A DNA stretch of 64,000 nucleotides, taken from the NCBI RefSeq assembly GCF_000284095.1, contig NC_017068.1:1550001-1614000 (forward strand), in the 5' to 3' direction. The notes beneath the pieces were generated by a model. It had not been told where the DNA came from. It did no database searches and saw only the letters and a program-made list of their open reading frames with translations. Below are positions 12,918 to 46,448 of this stretch, in pieces. Positions within the stretch are counted from its first letter, which is position 1; each line of letters begins with the position of its first letter. The DNA is from Selenomonas ruminantium subsp. lactilytica TAM6421. Its GTDB lineage: Bacteria; Bacillota; Negativicutes; Selenomonadales; Selenomonadaceae. A program made the position numbers and the translations under genes.

Positions 12918-15900
12918 TTAACAGAACAATGCTATCTGATCTGTCTCCCCCATGCCACCCAAGCAGCCATGATCTTTAAGGATATCAATATTTGTCTTGG
13001 AGATACCGGTACGGCGGCGCAGATCTTCAATGCTGGTAAAGATACCATCCCGGCGGGCTTCCACAATGCTTTGGGATGCTTTGGCACCCATGCCTCCCAA
13101 ACTTGCCAATGGCGGCAACAATGACTTTTCATGGATGATGAACTTCTCGGCGTCTGATGTGTAGATATCTACATTCTCACAATCATAGCCTCTGAGATAC
13201 ATCTCCCAAGCCAGCTGCAATACAATCAATGTGGCATTCTGCTTGGCATCCAGTTTTTTCTCCTTGGAGATCTCCTCCAGCTCTTTGATCTTTTCGCCAA
13301 CAAATTCCTGGCCGCGGGCGATGACGTTGGCATCGAACTCATCGGCACGGATGGAAAAATATGCTGCGTAATAAGCCAATGGATAATGCACCTTGCAGAA
13401 GGCGATGCGGTAAGCCATCATAACGTAGGCCGTCGCATGGGCCCGGGGGAACAGATATTTGATCTTCTGGCAGGAATCGATATACCATTGGGGAATATCC
13501 CCATCCTGCAGCTTCTTCACCACATCCGGATCGATGCCCTTCCCCTTTCGCACTTTTTCCATGGTCTTGAAGGACAGCAATGGATCGATGCCGTGATGGA
13601 TCAGATACATCATGATATCGTCACGGGCCGAGATGGCATTCTTGATGGTACACTGGCCGCTGCGGATCAGATCCTGGGCATTGCCCAGCCACACGTCGGT
13701 ACCATGGGAGAAACCAGAGATGCGTACCAGGTCCGAGAATACATCGGGGTTGGTATCGTCAATCATCTGTCGGGTAAAGGGCGTACGGAATTCGGGAATG
13801 CCAAAGGTTCCGGAGGTTGCCCCCAGCTCTTCCGGCGTTACTCCTAATGCATCCGTACAGTTGAACAAGGACATGGTGGCCACATCGTCAAAGGGAATGG
13901 TCTTCGGATCGCGGCAGGTCAAATCCTCCAGCATCTTGATCACAGTCGGATCATCGTGGCCCAGGATATCCAGCTTAACCAGACGGCTGCTGATGGAATG
14001 GTAATCGAAATGGGTAGTGATGGTACCGCAGTTCATATCATTGGCCGGATGCTGGATGGGTGTGAAGAAATGCACGTCCATATCCCGGGGCACTACCATG
14101 ATGCCTGCCGGATGCTGGCCCGTGGTGGACTTAACGCCCATACAGCCATGGGCCAATCGGTCGATATAGGAGATATGCTTCTTTATCCCCTTTTCTTCAA
14201 AATACTTTTTCACATACCCAAAGGCAGTCTTATCCGCCACGGTCTGGATGGAACCGGCACGGTATACATTGTCCTTGCCGAAGAGGATTTCCGTGTACTT
14301 ATGGGCCACGGGCTGATAAGTACCGGAGAAGTTCAGGTCGATATCGGGAACCTTGTCCCCATCGAAGCCCAGGAATACGGCGAAGGGGATATCATGGCCG
14401 TCCTTGATGAGCGGTGTGCCGCAGACAGGACAATCCATATCCGGCAGGTCATAGCCGCAGCCGTAGGAACCATCAGTGATAAACTTGCTGTACTGGCAAT
14501 GGGGGCAGCGCCAATGCGGAGGCAAAGGGTTAACCTCGGTAATGCCTGTCATGGTGGCGATAAAGGACGAACCTACGGAACCACGGGACCCTACCAGATA
14601 GCCATCGTCGTTGGATTTTTTCACGAGACGCTGGGCAATCAGATACAATACGGAGAAGCCATGACCAATGATGGGTTTCAGCTCCTGCTGGAGCCTGGCT
14701 TCCACGATTTCCGGCAGATTCTCGCCATACATGGCTTTGGCCCGGTTATAGGACATGGATTCGATTTCCTCGTCGGCACCGGGAATCATGGGGGAATAAA
14801 GATCATCCGGAATGGGTTTGAACTTCTCAATCATATCGTTGATCTTCCGAGGATTGGTCACCACGGCTTCATAAGCCGCCTCTTTCCCCAGATATTCAAA
14901 CTCCGCCAGCATTTCCTCCGTGGTCCGGAGATACAGGGGCGGCTGCATATCCGCATCTTCAAAGCCTTTTCCTTTCATCAATATAGCGCGGTAAATATAG
15001 TCATCGGGATTCAGGAAATGCACATCGCAGGTAGCCACAAGCATCTTGCCCAGTTTTTTGGCCAGCTCGGCCACCTTGAGGTTGATGTCAATCAAATCCT
15101 GGTCGGTATTGATATCCGGAAATTTATCGCTACGCTTGAGGAAGTCGTTGTTATGGATGGGCTGGATTTCCAGATAATCGTAGAAGGAGGCAATTTCGAT
15201 AAGCTGCTCCTCACTCTGCCCCTCCACAATGGCTCGGATCAGCTCCCCTGCTTCGCAGGCAGAACCAATGATGATGCCATCCCGGAATTCCTCGATGATT
15301 TTCTTGGGCAGACGGGGCTGACGGTGGAAATATTTGACATGGGACAAGGAAACCAGCTGATAGAGATTCCGCAGGCCGTTGGGATTTTTCGCCAGAAAGA
15401 TGATATGGTTAGCCCGCTTCTGTTCAAAATCGTCACCGGTCAGATAACCTTCCATGCCATAGATGACCTTGATATTGAGTTTTTCAGCAGCTTTGGCCGC
15501 ATCCGGATACGCCTGCACCACGCCGTGGTCCGTGATGGCAATGGCCGGCCAGCCCCAGCTGTCGGCAGTCTTGATCAGGTCTTTCACGGATACCACGGCG
15601 TCCATGGCACTCATGGTGGTATGGGCATGAAGCTCCACCCGCTTGACTTCGGCGTTATCCTGCCGCTTCTTCATTTCCTTTTTCGCCAGGGAATCCACAA
15701 AGACCACATACTCATTCATATAGGTATCAAATCGCACAGAGCCCTTGATACGCACGGCCATGCCCTCTTTGAGCTTGCCCATGATCTCGTCATAATCTTC
15801 TTCCTGACCATTGCGTCCCTTGCCGGGCTTGAAGAATTTCTTGCAGGCAATGCCGTCGGATTCATCGGACAGGCAGAAAGCCAGCATCTTCGTGCCGGTC

Positions 15901-16766
15901 TTGAACTCGATCGTCTTGAGGCCAGAGCCGGCACCTTCACCGATAAAACCTTCCAGAATGACGCTTTTCGTCTCACCTTCCAGCTCAGCGATAAGCTGCC
16001 GCTCGCCCATGATGCTGCGGCCAAAGATGGTATTGCCAGCCCCCTGAACCACCACAGGACGGGAAAGATCTTCCCGCTTGGGCGCTGGTGCGGCCTTAGG
16101 CTTATGCTCGCTGGCTGCCTTCGGCGCCGGTGCTGCTTTAGGAGCAGCCTTGACTTCTGTCTGAGCCTCGGCCACTCGTTCCTTATGCAGGGCCGCATGA
16201 TATTCGGGAGTATCAAAGCAGTCATCAACCGAAAGATTCTGCAGGACTTCATCACTGGCCTCGCAGGTTACGGGGCAACGATAGCCCAGCATATCCTTGA
16301 TGGCTCTGCCCATAAGCTGGGTTACCGCATGGGCCCGCATGATCTCGCCGCCAAGCTCACCGGGAACCTTGATAATAAGTTTGCTTCCGTCAACCACATA
16401 TTTCGAGCGTTTCAAAAGCTGGAAGACTGTGGGATTGCCCTCGGCTACAATAGTAACCAGCTGCGGCCAGACCTTGCGGATGCCATCGTCGATATCAATG
16501 ATATCTTGATAGAAAATAACCGCCTGCAGATTACACTTGCCCTTGATCTGCTCAGCCGCCCGCTGCAAGAGTGCATCCGGAATAAGCGTCTGGCTGGTCA
16601 ACGCAATTTCCCAAAGGCTGGTCTTGATACTGACCTCCACATGACGGATCACCGCATTCTTGAGCAGTGTCTTCTCCTCGTCCTGCAAAGTCATCCCCTG
16701 CACCAACTGCCAAAACATATTCTCCTGTTGCGGAACAATGCGATACTTCTGCATACGAACAAACAT
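12918..16766 (-). CDS. polC: PolC-type DNA polymerase III alpha subunit lacking the inserted exonuclease domain
   Basis: At 1282 residues this is about 155 shorter than the B. subtilis PolC of 1437. Order: N-terminal domains, an Ala/Lys/Pro-rich linker, an OB domain, PHP (HAHTTMSAMD, ITDHGVVQ, CDVHFLNPDD), a CPHC...CPVCG zinc motif, polymerase core (GSRGSVGSSF, DKVPDIDLNFSG, VKLDILGHDDPT) and a clamp-binding tail QIALF. Between YGMEGYL and HIIFLAKN, where PolC normally carries the DEDD exonuclease (VFDxETTG), there are only about ten residues. PHP metal ligands look intact. Start: ATG 16766 has an AAGGAG only one base away; ATG 16754 is thirteen bases away. Both are imperfect. Confidence 0.95.
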   Translation of the reverse strand: MFVRMQKYRIVPQQENMFWQLVQGMTLQDEEKTLLKNAVIRHVEVSIKTSLWEIALTSQTLIPDALLQRAAEQIKGKCNLQAVIFYQDIIDIDDGIRKVWPQLVTIVAEGNPTVFQLLKRSKYVVDGSKLIIKVPGELGGEIMRAHAVTQLMGRAIKDMLGYRCPVTCEASDEVLQNLSVDDCFDTPEYHAALHKERVAEAQTEVKAAPKAAPAPKAASEHKPKAAPAPKREDLSRPVVVQGAGNTIFGRSIMGERQLIAELEGETKSVILEGFIGEGAGSGLKTIEFKTGTKMLAFCLSDESDGIACKKFFKPGKGRNGQEEDYDEIMGKLKEGMAVRIKGSVRFDTYMNEYVVFVDSLAKKEMKKRQDNAEVKRVELHAHTTMSAMDAVVSVKDLIKTADSWGWPAIAITDHGVVQAYPDAAKAAEKLNIKVIYGMEGYLTGDDFEQKRANHIIFLAKNPNGLRNLYQLVSLSHVKYFHRQPRLPKKIIEEFRDGIIIGSACEAGELIRAIVEGQSEEQLIEIASFYDYLEIQPIHNNDFLKRSDKFPDINTDQDLIDINLKVAELAKKLGKMLVATCDVHFLNPDDYIYRAILMKGKGFEDADMQPPLYLRTTEEMLAEFEYLGKEAAYEAVVTNPRKINDMIEKFKPIPDDLYSPMIPGADEEIESMSYNRAKAMYGENLPEIVEARLQQELKPIIGHGFSVLYLIAQRLVKKSNDDGYLVGSRGSVGSSFIATMTGITEVNPLPPHWRCPHCQYSKFITDGSYGCGYDLPDMDCPVCGTPLIKDGHDIPFAVFLGFDGDKVPDIDLNFSGTYQPVAHKYTEILFGKDNVYRAGSIQTVADKTAFGYVKKYFEEKGIKKHISYIDRLAHGCMGVKSTTGQHPAGIMVVPRDMDVHFFTPIQHPANDMNCGTITTHFDYHSISSRLVKLDILGHDDPTVIKMLEDLTCRDPKTIPFDDVATMSLFNCTDALGVTPEELGATSGTFGIPEFRTPFTRQMIDDTNPDVFSDLVRISGFSHGTDVWLGNAQDLIRSGQCTIKNAISARDDIMMYLIHHGIDPLLSFKTMEKVRKGKGIDPDVVKKLQDGDIPQWYIDSCQKIKYLFPRAHATAYVMMAYRIAFCKVHYPLAYYAAYFSIRADEFDANVIARGQEFVGEKIKELEEISKEKKLDAKQNATLIVLQLAWEMYLRGYDCENVDIYTSDAEKFIIHEKSLLPPLASLGGMGAKASQSIVEARRDGIFTSIEDLRRRTGISKTNIDILKDHGCLGGMGETDQIALFC

Positions 16767-16798
16767 ACTCCTTACAAGTCAGCTTTATTTTTCTTTTG

Positions 16799-16827
16799 GT
16801 ACTTTTCTTTGCCCCAAAGAAAAGTAC
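16799..16827. repeat. Dispersed palindromic repeat, partial copy 1
   Basis: GTACTTTTCTTTG (16799-16811) and CAAAGAAAAGTAC (16815-16827) form a 13-base perfect stem with a CCC loop, flanked by TTCTTTTG and ATA. The same hairpin ends the larger repeat at 29363-29458 and 45869-45983. It lies between the transglycosylase gene and polC. Confidence 0.85.
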
Positions 16828-16836
16828 ATAGACAAC

Positions 16837-17448
16837 TTATTCTGGGTAAAGTTCTCTATACTTCTTGCGGTCTCCAATGACCTGTCTCACATAATCCCGG
16901 GTTTCCTTAAAAGGAATGGCATCAATATCATGGAATTCATAGTTCCAATCATTTTCCTCCATCCACGATTTGACATTGCCGCGCCCCGCATTATAGGCGG
17001 CCAGCGCCAGCACATCATTGCCCTTGAATTCCTTCTCTAATTCGGCCAGATACCAGGTTCCATAGCGGATATTGCGGTCCGGTTCATGGAGATTCTCCAG
17101 ACTGTAGTTCCGGTCACCAATCTGTCCCGCAATCCATTCCGCCGTATCCGGCATCAGCTGCATAAGCCCCACTGCCCCACGATGGGAACGGGCCGTATGC
17201 TTGAATTTACTTTCGCTCTTGATGACGGCAGCGGTCAGGTTGCTGTCCACATGATAGACCTCCGCATATTTCATCACCGTATCATGATAGGGGTACACAT
17301 AAAAATACTTGCGTTGTACAGGCTCGAACTGCAATACAAAGAATGCACTCAAACTCACAAGAAAAATAAATAAAGCAACGCAAAAGCAGGTGGCCATGCG
17401 TCGCTGAATACGCCGATTTTGCTGGACCCTGTCACGAAATCCCTGCAT
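16837..17448 (-). CDS. Membrane-anchored lytic transglycosylase (SLT family)
   Basis: This 203-residue protein has a basic N-terminus and one membrane anchor (CFCVALFIFLVSLSAFFVLQ, residues about 20-40), then an SLT domain facing the periplasm. The catalytic Glu is in IKSESKFKHTA, followed by GAVGLMQLMP and AYNAGRGNVKSW. It cleaves peptidoglycan with 1,6-anhydro ends. ATG 17448 follows AAGGAGT; an earlier start would add 50 residues read from coaE. It overlaps coaE by 17 bases. Confidence 0.9.
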   Translation of the reverse strand: MQGFRDRVQQNRRIQRRMATCFCVALFIFLVSLSAFFVLQFEPVQRKYFYVYPYHDTVMKYAEVYHVDSNLTAAVIKSESKFKHTARSHRGAVGLMQLMPDTAEWIAGQIGDRNYSLENLHEPDRNIRYGTWYLAELEKEFKGNDVLALAAYNAGRGNVKSWMEENDWNYEFHDIDAIPFKETRDYVRQVIGDRKKYRELYPE

Positions 17449-18040
17449 GGGTCCACTCCTTCCAAAGTTTTTCTGCCTGGGCAAAACTTTCCTCCAGGCT
17501 GCCATTGTTGTCGATGAAACTGTCCGCCCGCTGTTTTTTCTCTGCCAGCGGCATCTGGGCTGCAATGCGCCCCTTTGCCTCGGCCTCTGTATAACCATTG
17601 CGCCGCATCAGGCGTTCCAGCTGGGTGGCTTCATCCACAAACACCAAACAATTCTCCTCTGTCATTTTATCCCATCCGGCTTCAAAGAGCAATGGCACAT
17701 CGAGGATAATGACCGGAAAATTTTTTCGCTGCATACACTCGATCTGCTGCCGCATCACATGGGCCAGTATCGGATGGGTATGGTCATTGAGCCACTGGCG
17801 CTCATTCTCATCGGCAAAGACCTTCCGTCCGATAGCCCGGCGGTCAAGGGTGCCATCGGGCTGGAGGATACCCTCACCAAAATGCTGCACATAGATCTTA
17901 TAGAGTACCCGTCGGGGCTTGGACAGATGATGGGCAATGACATCCACATTGAGGACCGCCGCGCCTTTTTCCCGGAAGAATTTGGCCATGGTGCTTTTGC
18001 CACTGGCGATACCGCCGGTAAGACCGATAATCCTTGCCAT
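17432..18040 (-). CDS. coaE: Dephospho-CoA kinase
   Basis: This 202-residue P-loop kinase performs the last step of coenzyme A synthesis. Visible motifs are GLTGGIASGKST, DVIAHHLSK and the lid Arg region. ATG 18040 follows GGAGGG by six bases and overlaps the mutM stop (TAATG). It is part of polA-mutM-coaE, an order also seen in Bacillus. Confidence 0.95.
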   Translation of the reverse strand: MARIIGLTGGIASGKSTMAKFFREKGAAVLNVDVIAHHLSKPRRVLYKIYVQHFGEGILQPDGTLDRRAIGRKVFADENERQWLNDHTHPILAHVMRQQIECMQRKNFPVIILDVPLLFEAGWDKMTEENCLVFVDEATQLERLMRRNGYTEAEAKGRIAAQMPLAEKKQRADSFIDNNGSLEESFAQAEKLWKEWTHAGIS

Positions 18041-28601: not shown

Positions 28602-29327
28602 TCAGCTTTTGGCGATTTTGATTGCTTCCGGCAAATCCAAGGTTCCCATGTAAATGGATTTACCCGCGATTACACCTTCGATGCCAAAAGCTTCCTTTTC
28701 TTTTAAAGCCTTGATATCCTCCAAGGATTTTACCCCGCCGGAAGCGACAATCTTTACGCCGCTTTCCTGTGCCAGTTTAACGGTAGCTTCTACATTAACG
28801 CCACTTAACGTGCCATCCCGGGAAATATCCGTATAGATGATGGTCTTGACGCCGGCTTTTTTCATTTCCTTTGCCAGTTCAATCACACCGATATTGCCGG
28901 ATTTCCCCCAGCCTTCCACGGCCACGATTCCATCTTTGGCATCAATGCCTACGACAATACGCTCTCCATATTTCGCACAGGCCTCTTTGACCAGTTCAGG
29001 ATTTTTCACCGCTACGGAACCGAGAATAACCCGGGTAATTCCCAAGTTGAGCAGTTTATCAATCTGCTCCATGGTACGGATTCCCCCACCAAGCTCCGTA
29101 GGGATATTCACCGTTTTCAGGATTTCCTCAATAGCCGCCAGATTCTGCGAAGAACCAGCCAAAGCTCCATCTAAATCCACTAAGTGGAGATACTCAGCCC
29201 CCTGCTCCTGCCACTTAGCTGCCATAGCAGCCGGACTATCGGAAAACACCGTTTCCTGATTAAAGTCACCTTTCAGCAACCGAACACACTTACCCCCACG
29301 AATATCAATAGCCGGAAAAATAATCAT
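28602..29327 (-). CDS. hisA: ProFAR isomerase
   Basis: This 241-residue TIM barrel isomerises ProFAR to PRFAR. FPAIDIRGGKCVRLLKGDF at the N-terminus and GGGIRTMEQ and DISRDGTLSGVN later are signatures, with catalytic Asp residues in AIDIRGG and YTDISRDG. It is the last his gene here; hisF and hisI do not follow. It is separated from hisH by a 147-base gap holding a structured repeat. Confidence 0.96.
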   Translation of the reverse strand: MIIFPAIDIRGGKCVRLLKGDFNQETVFSDSPAAMAAKWQEQGAEYLHLVDLDGALAGSSQNLAAIEEILKTVNIPTELGGGIRTMEQIDKLLNLGITRVILGSVAVKNPELVKEACAKYGERIVVGIDAKDGIVAVEGWGKSGNIGVIELAKEMKKAGVKTIIYTDISRDGTLSGVNVEATVKLAQESGVKIVASGGVKSLEDIKALKEKEAFGIEGVIAGKSIYMGTLDLPEAIKIAKS

Positions 29328-29362
29328 ACAATAATTCCCCCATCGTGCAAACTCGTCGCCCC

Positions 29363-29458
29363 GGCGCCCAAGGAAGGGCGCCCGTGGCCGTAAATCCCCG
29401 GATGGGATTTCAGGCCACAGTTTCTTTTGGTACTTTTCTTTGCTCCAAAGAAAAGTAC
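29363..29458. repeat. Dispersed structured repeat, full copy 2
   Basis: Three hairpins are in a row: GGCGCCC/GGGCGCC (29363-29369, 29376-29382); GTGGCC+AAATCCC pairing with GGGATTT+GGCCAC (29384-29418); and GTACTTTTCTTTG/CAAAGAAAAGTAC (29430-29458). It sits between hisH and hisA inside the operon. Comparison with the copy at 45869-45983 shows paired compensatory changes. Confidence 0.9.
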
Positions 29459-29474
29459 ATAACTACGCATTAAC

Positions 29475-30089
29475 TTAAAGCCGACAAAAGTTTTCAATTA
29501 TATGCAAACCAATATCTCCTGACTTTTCCGGATGAAACTGCGTAGCAAAGATATTATCCTTCTGCACCGAAGCAGTAAGTCGCTCCCCATAATCAGTAGC
29601 AGAGGTCACTACTGATTTATCTTCTGGCACCGCATGATAACTATGCACGAAATAAACATATTCCTTATCCTGCCCCAGCCCGGCAAATAAATCCTGCTCC
29701 CGTCGAGGCTCAGCAATATGCAGCCGATTCCATCCCATATGGGGAACTTTCAAGCCTTCTGCCTGAATTCTTTTCACCTGACCGGGAATCAGGCCTAAGC
29801 CTTTTGCCTCCGGCGATTCCTCGCTGCCAGCAAAGAGAATCTGCAGCCCCACGCAAATGCCCAACAGGGGCTTGCCAGCAGCCACTTCCTCTTTGAGCAA
29901 AGGAATCAGTCCGCTTTCTTCAAGGTTTTTCATGCAGTCGCCAAAGGCGCCCACGCCAGGCAGAACAAGTTTTTCCGCCGCCTTGATTTCCTCGGGATCA
30001 TTGGTGATTTTTGCCTCTGCCCCTAATGCAGCAAAGGCTTTTTCCACACTAAATAAATTGCCTACACCATAATCAATTATCGCAATCAT
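29475..30089 (-). CDS. hisH: Imidazole glycerol phosphate synthase, glutaminase subunit
   Basis: This 204-residue class I amidotransferase releases ammonia for HisF. Visible are IDYGVGNLFSVEKA, the nucleophile elbow LGICVGLQILF and the catalytic His/Glu in FATQFHPEKSG. The partner hisF is not in the window. It begins 12 bases after hisB. Confidence 0.96.
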   Translation of the reverse strand: MIAIIDYGVGNLFSVEKAFAALGAEAKITNDPEEIKAAEKLVLPGVGAFGDCMKNLEESGLIPLLKEEVAAGKPLLGICVGLQILFAGSEESPEAKGLGLIPGQVKRIQAEGLKVPHMGWNRLHIAEPRREQDLFAGLGQDKEYVYFVHSYHAVPEDKSVVTSATDYGERLTASVQKDNIFATQFHPEKSGDIGLHIIENFCRL

Positions 30090-44749: not shown

Positions 44750-45829
44750 TCAACGAGCTCCAATCTCAATCAGTTCCTTAGGCGCCTTAGTCAGTGCTTC
44801 GCATCCGGTTTCCGTCACCAGCACCGTATCTTCAATGCGCAGACCGCCCCAGCCCGGCAGGTAAACGCCCGGTTCATCCGTCACCAGCATCCCCGGCTGC
44901 AGTGCCTCACAGGTGCTCTTCGGCGACAGGCGCGGTTCCTCATGGATTTCCAGCCCCAGGCTGTGACCAAGACCATGACCGAAATACTGGGCCAGATCAT
45001 ACTTGGCCAGATTAGCACGCACGGCCTCATGAACCGCTTTACCAGACACCCCCGGCTTGATCTTATTCAAACCCAACAGCTGGGATTCCAGCACAGCTTT
45101 ATAAACCTTGCGCTGCTTTTCATCGGCTTTGCCAATGCAGATGGTACGGGTGATATCCGAAGCATAGCCATTATAGAAAGCGCCAAAATCCATGGTCAGG
45201 AACTCACCCTCATGGATGACCTTGTCCGTAGCAATGCCATGCGGCAGGCTGCCCCGCACACCGGACGCCATGATGGTAGTAAAAGACGGCCCTTCCGAAC
45301 CATTTTCCCGCATGCAGTTCTCCAGATGAGCTGCTGCTTGCACCTCCGTCATGCCCGGACGAATATAGGTCAGCATATCCGCAAAGGCAATATCCACAAT
45401 CTCGCAGGCCCTGCGGATATTTGCAATCTCCTCTGCATCCTTGATCTGACGCAGGGTATCCAGCTTCAACGGCGTCTTGAATTCGCAGCCATCCAGGAAT
45501 TCACCCAGTTTGGCGAAATAATCATAGATCAGGTCATTGCCTTCAAAACCGACTTTCTTCGCGCCAATCTTCTTCACACACTCCGCCGTCTTGGAAAGCA
45601 AACCGTCCTTCTGCTCCACAATCTCAAACAACGGCGCCTGCTGCCCCGCCTGCTCTGTATAACGGCTGTCCGTAATCAGCATAGCATCCTTCTGGCCAAT
45701 AACAAGCGTAGTATCATCACCACGGAACCCACTGAAATAATGCAGATTCACATATTTCGTGATAATCACCGCATCCAAATCTTTCTCTGCCATCAAAGCA
45801 CGCAAAGCCTGCAACCGACTGTCCTTCAT
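44750..45829 (-). CDS. M24 metallopeptidase (Xaa-Pro peptidase)
   Basis: This 359-residue protein has an N-terminal creatinase-like domain and a C-terminal pita-bread fold. Metal ligands appear in LTMDFGAFYNGYASDITRT (two Asp), GHGLGHSLGLEIHEEP (His, Glu) and VTDEPGVYLPGWGG (Glu). It releases X-Pro dipeptides or N-terminal residues before Pro in the cytoplasm. Upstream on the same strand lie a structured repeat and aroQ. Confidence 0.94.
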   Translation of the reverse strand: MKDSRLQALRALMAEKDLDAVIITKYVNLHYFSGFRGDDTTLVIGQKDAMLITDSRYTEQAGQQAPLFEIVEQKDGLLSKTAECVKKIGAKKVGFEGNDLIYDYFAKLGEFLDGCEFKTPLKLDTLRQIKDAEEIANIRRACEIVDIAFADMLTYIRPGMTEVQAAAHLENCMRENGSEGPSFTTIMASGVRGSLPHGIATDKVIHEGEFLTMDFGAFYNGYASDITRTICIGKADEKQRKVYKAVLESQLLGLNKIKPGVSGKAVHEAVRANLAKYDLAQYFGHGLGHSLGLEIHEEPRLSPKSTCEALQPGMLVTDEPGVYLPGWGGLRIEDTVLVTETGCEALTKAPKELIEIGAR

Positions 45830-45868
45830 AAACTACGTCAACTCCTGTGAAAAAATCGTGGTAACCCC

Positions 45869-45983
45869 GGCGCCCAAGGAAGGGCGCCTGCGGACGTAAA
45901 TCCCCGGAAGGGATTTCAGTCCGCTGTTTTCGCCTGTGCCCGCCAGGGTATTTGGTCCTTTTCTTTGTGCCAAAGAAAAGGAC
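45869..45983. repeat. Dispersed structured repeat, full copy 3
   Basis: The same three-hairpin layout as at 29363-29458 is present: GGCGCCC/GGGCGCC; GCGGAC+AAATCCC with GGGATTT+GTCCGC; and GTCCTTTTCTTTG/CAAAGAAAAGGAC. Two stems differ from copy 2 at both paired positions, keeping the pairing. An extra stretch of about 19 bases separates hairpins 2 and 3. It lies between aroQ and the M24 gene. Confidence 0.9.
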
Positions 45984-45984
45984 A

Positions 45985-46422
45985 TCAACTCTTTAACTTG
46001 TAGATAATGGCCTCGAGAGCTGCCAAATAGCTCTCAACCCCCAATCCACATATCTGTCCCATAGCGACAGGGGCTATAACCGAATTATGCCGGAACTCCT
46101 CCCGCTTGTGGATATTGGAGATATGCACCTCAATCAAGGGCACCTCCACCGCCGCAATGGCATCCCGCAGGGCAATGCTGTAATGGGTAAAGGCTGCCGC
46201 ATTGAAGATGATGTAATCATACACGGCCCGGGCCGCCTGAATCTTATCCACCAGCACGCCTTCATGATTGGACTGGAAGCAATCCACCTCAATACCAGCT
46301 TCAGCGCCCCGCTTCTGCAGCATTTCCTCAATGTCTTTCAATGTGGTACTGCCATAAATCTCCGGCTCCCGGGTTCCCAGCAGATTGAGATTCGGGCCGT
46401 TCAATACCAAAACCTTCTTCAT
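45985..46422 (-). CDS. aroQ: 3-dehydroquinate dehydratase, type II
   Basis: This 145-residue dodecameric enzyme of the shikimate pathway has NGPNLNLLGTREPEIYG (catalytic Tyr), SNHEGVLVDKI, NAAAFTHYSIALRDAI and EVHISNIHKREEFRH with the catalytic His. Start at ATG 46422: the earlier ATG six bases upstream is too close to GGGGG. Confidence 0.96.
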   Translation of the reverse strand: MKKVLVLNGPNLNLLGTREPEIYGSTTLKDIEEMLQKRGAEAGIEVDCFQSNHEGVLVDKIQAARAVYDYIIFNAAAFTHYSIALRDAIAAVEVPLIEVHISNIHKREEFRHNSVIAPVAMGQICGLGVESYLAALEAIIYKLKS

Positions 46423-46448
46423 AGACATCCCCCTTCAGGATCATATGG

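Follow-up and report, generated by a model that had tools for sequence, protein, structure and literature searches.

A dispersed three-hairpin repeat of Selenomonadaceae and its possible role between genes of Selenomonas

The hairpin repeat analyzed here was found in the window, i.e., a 64,000-nt stretch (C1:1550001-1614000) of a genome of the Selenomonas ruminantium group with 3.63 Mb and 10 contigs (G000, the home genome), in which contig C1 comprises 3,003,680 bases and whose layout is similar to that of S. ruminantium TAM6421. It is best read as a MITE-like repeat family of Selenomonadaceae, 106-125 nt long with three hairpins. In Selenomonas, this repeat may be kept as a sense-oriented intercistronic hairpin cassette at the 3' ends of genes, working by analogy with REP or ERIC sequences; this role is proposed tentatively, as its chance of being correct is put slightly below even. 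Intergenic hairpin repeats are common. The element described here is distinctive in its heavy compensatory change, its gene-sense orientation (26 of 27 sites), and its anchoring to stop codons inside core-metabolism operons. Orthologous sites that are occupied in some genomes and empty in others make an effect on expression directly testable, and a nearly invariant ANGGAN loop points to a possible connection with CsrA.

Copies, distribution, and covariation

Two full copies and a partial one are present in the window, at the positions where a previous reading of the letters alone (herein referred to as the sequence-only reading) had placed them: 29363-29458, 45869-45983, and 16799-16827. As also claimed there, all three lie between minus-strand genes. 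The core of copy 1 (29357..29462, sense strand minus; 115 bits with the covariance model, and sequence) is located between hisH (29475..30089, TIGR01855) upstream and hisA (28602..29327, TIGR00007) downstream, both on the minus strand. Stem 3 (29430..29458; fold and sequence), with 13 bp and a 3-nt loop, is the first hairpin after the hisH stop codon. Stem 2 (29384..29418; fold and covariation) has 6 + 7 bp with a 2x2 internal loop, and stem 1 (29363..29382; fold and loop conservation) has 7 bp; all three are assigned to the minus strand. On the plus strand, the stem 1 loop reads C[AAGGAA]G (29369-29376).

Copy 2 (45863..45987, minus strand; model match of 101 bits, and sequence) fills the gap between aroQ (45985..46428, minus strand, TIGR01088), whose stop codon touches the element, and a downstream Xaa-Pro peptidase-like gene (44750..45829, minus strand; best match PRK09795, under the curated cut-off). 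Its stems are located at 45869-45888, 45890-45924, and 45955-45983 of the minus strand. An additional small hairpin separates stem 3 from stem 2 and accounts for the 18 nt by which copy 2 exceeds copy 1. This hairpin (45925-45954 in the window) was also observed at loci L016 and L019. The partial copy consists of stem 3 only (within 16785..16831, minus strand, 37 bits) and lies between a lytic transglycosylase-like gene (16837..17598, minus strand; NF047373, under cut-off) upstream and polC (12918..16766, minus strand; PRK00448, TIGR01405) downstream. It is probably a remnant, since the full element was found at the orthologous site (10,11) in G004 and G012.

The paired differences between the two full copies were likewise found as described: stem 2 is GTGGCC/GGCCAC in one copy and GCGGAC/GTCCGC in the other, and stem 3 is GTAC/GTAC versus GTCC/GGAC. 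The stem 1 sequence, with up to 3 mismatches, has 2 matches in the window and none in 100 shuffles, and the stem 3 half-site, with up to 2 mismatches, has 15 window matches versus 4.6 expected. The minus-strand fold energies of copies 1 and 2 are 6.2 and 5.3 SD, respectively, below those of dinucleotide shuffles. No family was assigned to the element at gathering score in an Rfam search of the window. The sole Rfam family found in the window was the SAM riboswitch RF00162 (2983-3087, plus strand; 93 bits, E 5.5e-21).

Further copies, in whose absence the sequence-only reading would have dropped its claim, were found with a covariance model built from 19 copies. The home genome contains 19 full copies and one remnant, all on C1; the other 32 matches were weaker opposite-strand matches at the same places. 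The model found no copies on the remaining nine contigs, which total 628 kb; as 20 randomly placed copies would have an approximately 2% chance of this, the absence is no more than suggestive. Of 300 genomes sampled from the class (Negativicutes), 35 contain the element. All but one of these belong to Selenomonadaceae, across five genera; the remaining genome belongs to another family and has 6% contamination. The largest number of matches was found in G144 (76), followed by G274 (47), G266 (35), and G214 (24), and matches in the genus Selenomonas include 20 in the home genome, 9 in G012, and 7 each in G006 and G011. In addition, all 63 stretches with the stem 2 pattern in named genomes came from Selenomonas, Selenomonadaceae, or Selenomonadales records. 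In G274, for which 44 of the 47 matches were listed, all 10 listed copies on contig C8 (2,141,647 bases) lie within 1.69-2.10 Mb, the first 1.69 Mb being free of them. No element was found in 72,556 plasmid records, a set that may leave out close relatives of the window, and viral contigs had no match to two exact patterns, which variants escape. The repeat family was not found described in the titles and opening parts of abstracts searched, a body of literature that leaves most subscription papers outside.

The three-hairpin structure is kept by compensatory change. Among the 19 copies of the home genome, two-sided changes were found in 12 of 33 pairs, and 95.9% of cells are paired; four of five measures were never reached by 500 shuffles, while the fifth (pair types) was reached by 40 of them. 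For 76 distinct copies of the genus, the corresponding values are 23 of 33 pairs and 97.4% of cells, compared with 10.3 pairs and 88.7% for shuffles and no more than 9 pairs and 50.4% for slid controls, the alignment having been fitted to the model and hence leaning towards it. At the outer end of stem 1, the last two base pairs are open in 26 and 24 of these 76 copies. Since the covariation score exceeds those of all 500 shuffles and all slid controls, the claim of a preserved fold, which was to fall if a larger set lacked covariation, stands.

One-sided intermediates are scarce. In 123 pairwise comparisons of the same site across species, which are not independent, 338 compensated changes were found versus 118 one-sided ones, the latter comprising 30 to or from G-U and 88 breaking changes; an additional 34 changes were two-sided and breaking. 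This scarcity allows DNA-level correction or copy exchange besides selection on RNA. A single site can also hold differing stem 2 versions in different species. On the sense strand of 118 distinct copies, G-U occupies 38 of 3809 cells (approximately 1%) and A-C 19, with 23 versus 9 in stem 3 and 15 versus 10 in stems 1 and 2. An A-C cell on one strand is G-U on the other. The excess of G-U over A-C on the sense strand counts for action in mRNA, whereas the rarity of G-U is unusual for an RNA helix, is compatible with a DNA-level cause, and counts against it.

Gene context and proposed role

Genes were called with a home-made hexamer-scored ORF caller trained on the Selenomonas group, with approximate starts; it replaced a longest-ORF caller that gave differing neighbours at several copies. 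Both neighbours run in the sense direction at all 20 copies of the home genome and at 59 of 61 copies (60 loci) in 11 congeners, the two exceptions being one site in two species. The 81 copies in the genus represent 27 sites, 21 of which are common to at least two species. All 27 sites are between co-directional genes, and the element is sense to both neighbours at 26 of them. The context counts cover 13 of 14 listed matches in G003 and 14 of 15 in G004, where those left out are weak partial matches; 3 of 4 in G009, where the fourth is a reverse-strand match over an included copy; 3 of at least 13 in G022; and none of those in G006 (7) or G007 (4). Of the 56 pairs of adjacent genes in the window, 49 have both genes in the same direction, and the gaps within these pairs account for 5138 of 6912 intergenic bases; therefore, co-directional neighbours alone are often expected.

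Additionally, the element is anchored to the upstream stop codon. The gap on the stop side is smaller than that on the start side at 21 of the 26 sense sites (p 0.0025), and at 19 of the 26 no more than approximately 20 nt separate stem 3 from that codon. At six of the remaining seven sites, the stop codon is 33 to 148 nt away. At the seventh, site (45,46), the caller extends the gene into the copy and thereby gives a spurious stop gap of 1532 nt; this site was retained in the counts.

NCBIfam names were assigned to 30 neighbour proteins. They include the linked pairs pgk/tpiA, hisH/hisA, purC/purE, and kdsB/kdsA, as well as heptose kinase/ADP-heptose epimerase, flgF/flgG, radical-SAM protein/RNase G, and lytic transglycosylase/polC; obgE and RNase R lie downstream of other copies, and some pairs, such as serS/sodium transporter, are not clearly linked. 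The pgk/tpiA site may be the oldest location of the element, because it is occupied in eight species and holds the sole match in four genomes (G001, G010, and, with stricter filters, G023 and G026).

Within the genus, the placement and orientation of the copies agree with an element that acts in mRNA between genes, as one part of the sequence-only reading had it. Judging from fold and position, the element would act in polycistronic mRNA. The first hairpin, approximately 10 nt after the stop codon, and the two that follow would together act as a barrier where the upstream cistron ends. Such a barrier would shield this cistron from 3'-to-5' decay or delay the terminating ribosome; the element would also unlink the translation of the two cistrons. 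Transcription should pass through the Selenomonas copies, because they have no U-tract. For comparison, REPs located no more than 15 nt from a stop codon were reported to lower translation in Escherichia coli (available excerpt of PMC12306157), and ERIC sequences between genes alter the stability of upstream mRNA depending on their orientation (accessible part of PMC2229807).

The same orientation of all copies, noted in the window by the sequence-only reading, holds in Selenomonas but not in all relatives, where it is mixed or reversed. The samples from other genera, mostly the better matches, comprised 27 of 47 matches in G274, 20 of 76 in G144, and 3 of 35 in G266. In G274 (genus g20), both neighbours run in the sense direction at 20 of the 27 examined copies. 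In G144 (g19), 12 of the 20 examined copies are between convergent genes, and 9 have both gene ends within 150 nt. Among the named loci with scored neighbours, 41 copies are sense to both neighbours and 9 antisense to both, the rest being mixed or incomplete; nearly all non-sense copies there come from two metagenome genomes. Strict sense orientation is thus a property of Selenomonas, mostly also of g20, and not of the whole family.

The genera also differ in the sequence behind stem 1. For copies longer than 80 nt, T makes up on average 20% of the 12 nt that follow this stem in Selenomonas (g1, 61 copies), 27% in G274 (27 copies), 62% in G144 (20 copies), and 49% (19 copies) and 62% (6 copies) in two metagenome genomes. 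These values bear on the alternative that the element is an intrinsic transcription terminator in all lineages, Selenomonas included. The high T content in G144, the convergent genes with close ends, and a G144 copy called terminator-like on both strands (at a locus where calls are not more frequent than in shuffles) speak for it, as does a T-rich stretch behind stem 2 on the antisense strand in Selenomonas. However, a terminator scan found no terminator-like site on either strand of the two full window copies, T averages 20% in the 61 genus copies, and many copies separate linked genes, so that a terminator there would have polar effects. By sequence, the GC-rich hairpin with a U-tract behind it that marks an intrinsic terminator is absent from the two full window copies and from the g1 average and present in G144, and termination as the common function is very doubtful. 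In the sister genus, the same cassette with a T run behind stem 1 at gene ends would be a likely terminator. The contrast between intercistronic copies without a T run in Selenomonas and terminator-like, convergent ones in the sister genus would offer a natural series from a selfish repeat to a working gene-end element.

Gain, loss, and mobility

Copies of the element are gained, as shown by the MITE-like presence and absence at orthologous sites. The hisH/hisA gap holds the element in 6 genomes and is empty in 4; at the empty loci (L128-L131), as read from their sequence, the hisH stop overlaps the hisA start, and insertion would thus likely remove translational coupling. In G003 and G006, the hisH stop codon is inside the inserted DNA, i.e., it is supplied by the element. 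These two genomes share the flanks and only G006 has the extra hairpin, which therefore comes or goes inside the element. Presence and absence were found at further orthologous sites, several of them poorly aligned. At other sites, stem 3 is all that one strain retains, and most of the element is missing from another; remnants like that at window position 16799 can therefore arise by loss.

The family could also be a selfish DNA hairpin element, mobilised in trans by a putative, perhaps single-strand-directed transposase, with accidental effects on mRNA. The replication fork would then set its orientation, and the needs of the enzyme, hairpin-templated repair, or copy exchange would keep its stems. 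Presence and absence at orthologous sites, two-sided changes nearly without G-U intermediates, and several stem 2 versions at one site across species are consistent with such an element. So is the polarity of the copies: GC skew identifies the sense strand as the leading strand for all 20 copies of the home genome, and the sole antisense site of the genus also opposes the skew. The home genome has too few copies beside lagging-strand genes to tell an effect of gene direction from one of the replication fork.

A second dispersed hairpin repeat (GCCTTCCCCTTGAGGGGAAGG...GGATGAGGTG) was observed behind several copies, e.g., at C1:2426907-2426975 beside L018. All 11 of its matches in the home genome have the same leading-strand polarity, and polarity is therefore not special to the three-hairpin element.

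Several results do not fit a selfish element. The search of the home genome with PF01797 for the RAYT transposase proposed in the sequence-only reading found none (positive controls matched in 5 of 14 genomes). Y1 genes are present in 13 of 22 genomes of the genus without correspondence to the copy number of the element; they are absent from G000, G006, G011, and G012, with 20, 7, 7, and 9 element matches, respectively. No match to the element model was found at six Y1 loci (L152-L157) with E up to 1. By eye, these loci of congeners are IS605-like, with tnpA (Y1) followed by a tnpB-like sequence and with other ends; the home genome lacks such elements. A Y1/RAYT protein as carrier in the home genome was rejected on the absence of PF01797 together with the element-free Y1 loci. 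No constant target-site duplication was seen by eye at the junctions, several of which are poorly aligned. Nor is a closing stem, or terminal inverted repeat, formed by the flanks claimed here: some copies look paired, but the flank duplex energy (-7.65) equals that of permuted pairs (-7.77), a comparison that tests covariation rather than consensus complementarity. Finally, closeness to stop codons is left without explanation by a selfish element; this anchoring tips the balance towards transcription over replication as the source of the orientation. A purely selfish element thus appears unlikely, though far from negligible, and the intercistronic cassette acting in mRNA remains our preferred reading.

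The stem 1 loop and comparison with known systems

The conserved loop of stem 1 makes more sense on the plus strand, which weighs against the cassette acting in mRNA. On this strand, the hexaloop C[ANGGAN]G has A in 151, G in 154, G in 154, and A in 154 of 155 copies, with both N positions free, and is closed by a C-G pair in 154 of 155; the copies are related, and these counts are not independent. Eight of 163 copies without a hexaloop hairpin were set aside. With loop length unforced, ANGGA was found in 151 of 160 hairpins among the 163 copies. The plus strand thus has the form of a CsrA ligand, as the high-affinity form for CsrA/RsmE is given as a C-G-closed stem bearing an ANGGAX hexaloop (available part of PMC4005645).

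The functional RNA could accordingly be that of the window plus strand, in which a CsrA-type hexaloop is followed by stem 2 and a T-rich stretch, the copies binding or titrating CsrA. The near-invariant loop argues for this possibility. CsrA is present in 31 of 32 element-bearing genomes, but also in 16 of the 20 genomes tested that have no element, a difference too small to lean on. The best sub-threshold Rfam match at copy 1 is rsmX on the plus strand (16.4 bits, with 56 needed; E 0.61), which is at chance level. Two CsrA paralogues were observed in the home genome (C1:2596722-2596880 and C1:1672597-1672731) and in several congeners, and one in the tested genomes of g19 and g20. Against a plus-strand function, gene direction places the predicted ANGGAN loop on the untranscribed strand in Selenomonas; no conserved antisense promoter was seen by eye, and a scan of the two window copies found no plus-strand promoter just upstream of stem 1. 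Such a function is accordingly judged improbable. It is slightly less probable still that the repeat is a dispersed CsrA ligand, i.e., tens of chromosomal cassettes with a candidate high-affinity ANGGAN hexaloop on the plus strand. If it were, antisense transcripts of operons or the 3' UTRs of convergent genes in sister genera would titrate or recruit CsrA, and a mobile repeat would have become a distributed post-transcriptional sponge. No comparable dispersed CsrA-sponge system was found in titles and opening parts of abstracts on CsrA loops and Selenomonas repeats.

Among known systems, hairpins bound by CsrA/RsmE (RsmX/Y/Z, CsrB) share the C[ANGGAN]G hexaloop on a stem; the repeat, a predicted ligand, differs in carrying it opposite to the mRNA strand of the genus and in being dispersed rather than one sRNA gene. 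Intrinsic terminators resemble the G144 copies, with stem 1 and a T run near gene ends, and differ from those of Selenomonas, which have no T run. Correia/NEMIS, RUP, and other bacterial MITEs are likewise small and non-coding, show presence and absence at sites, and have stop codons at an end, whereas neither a terminal inverted repeat nor a target duplication nor a partner transposase was found for this element.

With REP/BIME of enterobacteria, the element shares dispersed intergenic palindromes, a share of REPs being located within 15 nt of a stop codon (available excerpt of PMC12306157). The sequence-only reading, which proposed a REP-like element or a structured RNA between genes, was right about the kind, but membership among REPs in the strict sense is not supported. 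A REP is a single palindrome of 20-40 nt with GTAG or CGTC as a tag on one of its ends (length from the accessible part of PMC3733652), whereas the core here has 106-125 nt, typically about 110, and three hairpins; the element is also present in tens of copies, in a genome without Y1/RAYT, and no alternating arrays were seen. ERIC/YPAL sequences have 7-bp terminal repeats and target duplications (table in the available text of PMC2229807), neither demonstrated here. By description rather than by sequence, the element is like them in being intergenic and of similar length (approximately 127 bp in ERIC), and ERIC sequences are co-transcribed and affect upstream mRNA in an orientation-dependent manner (same partial source).
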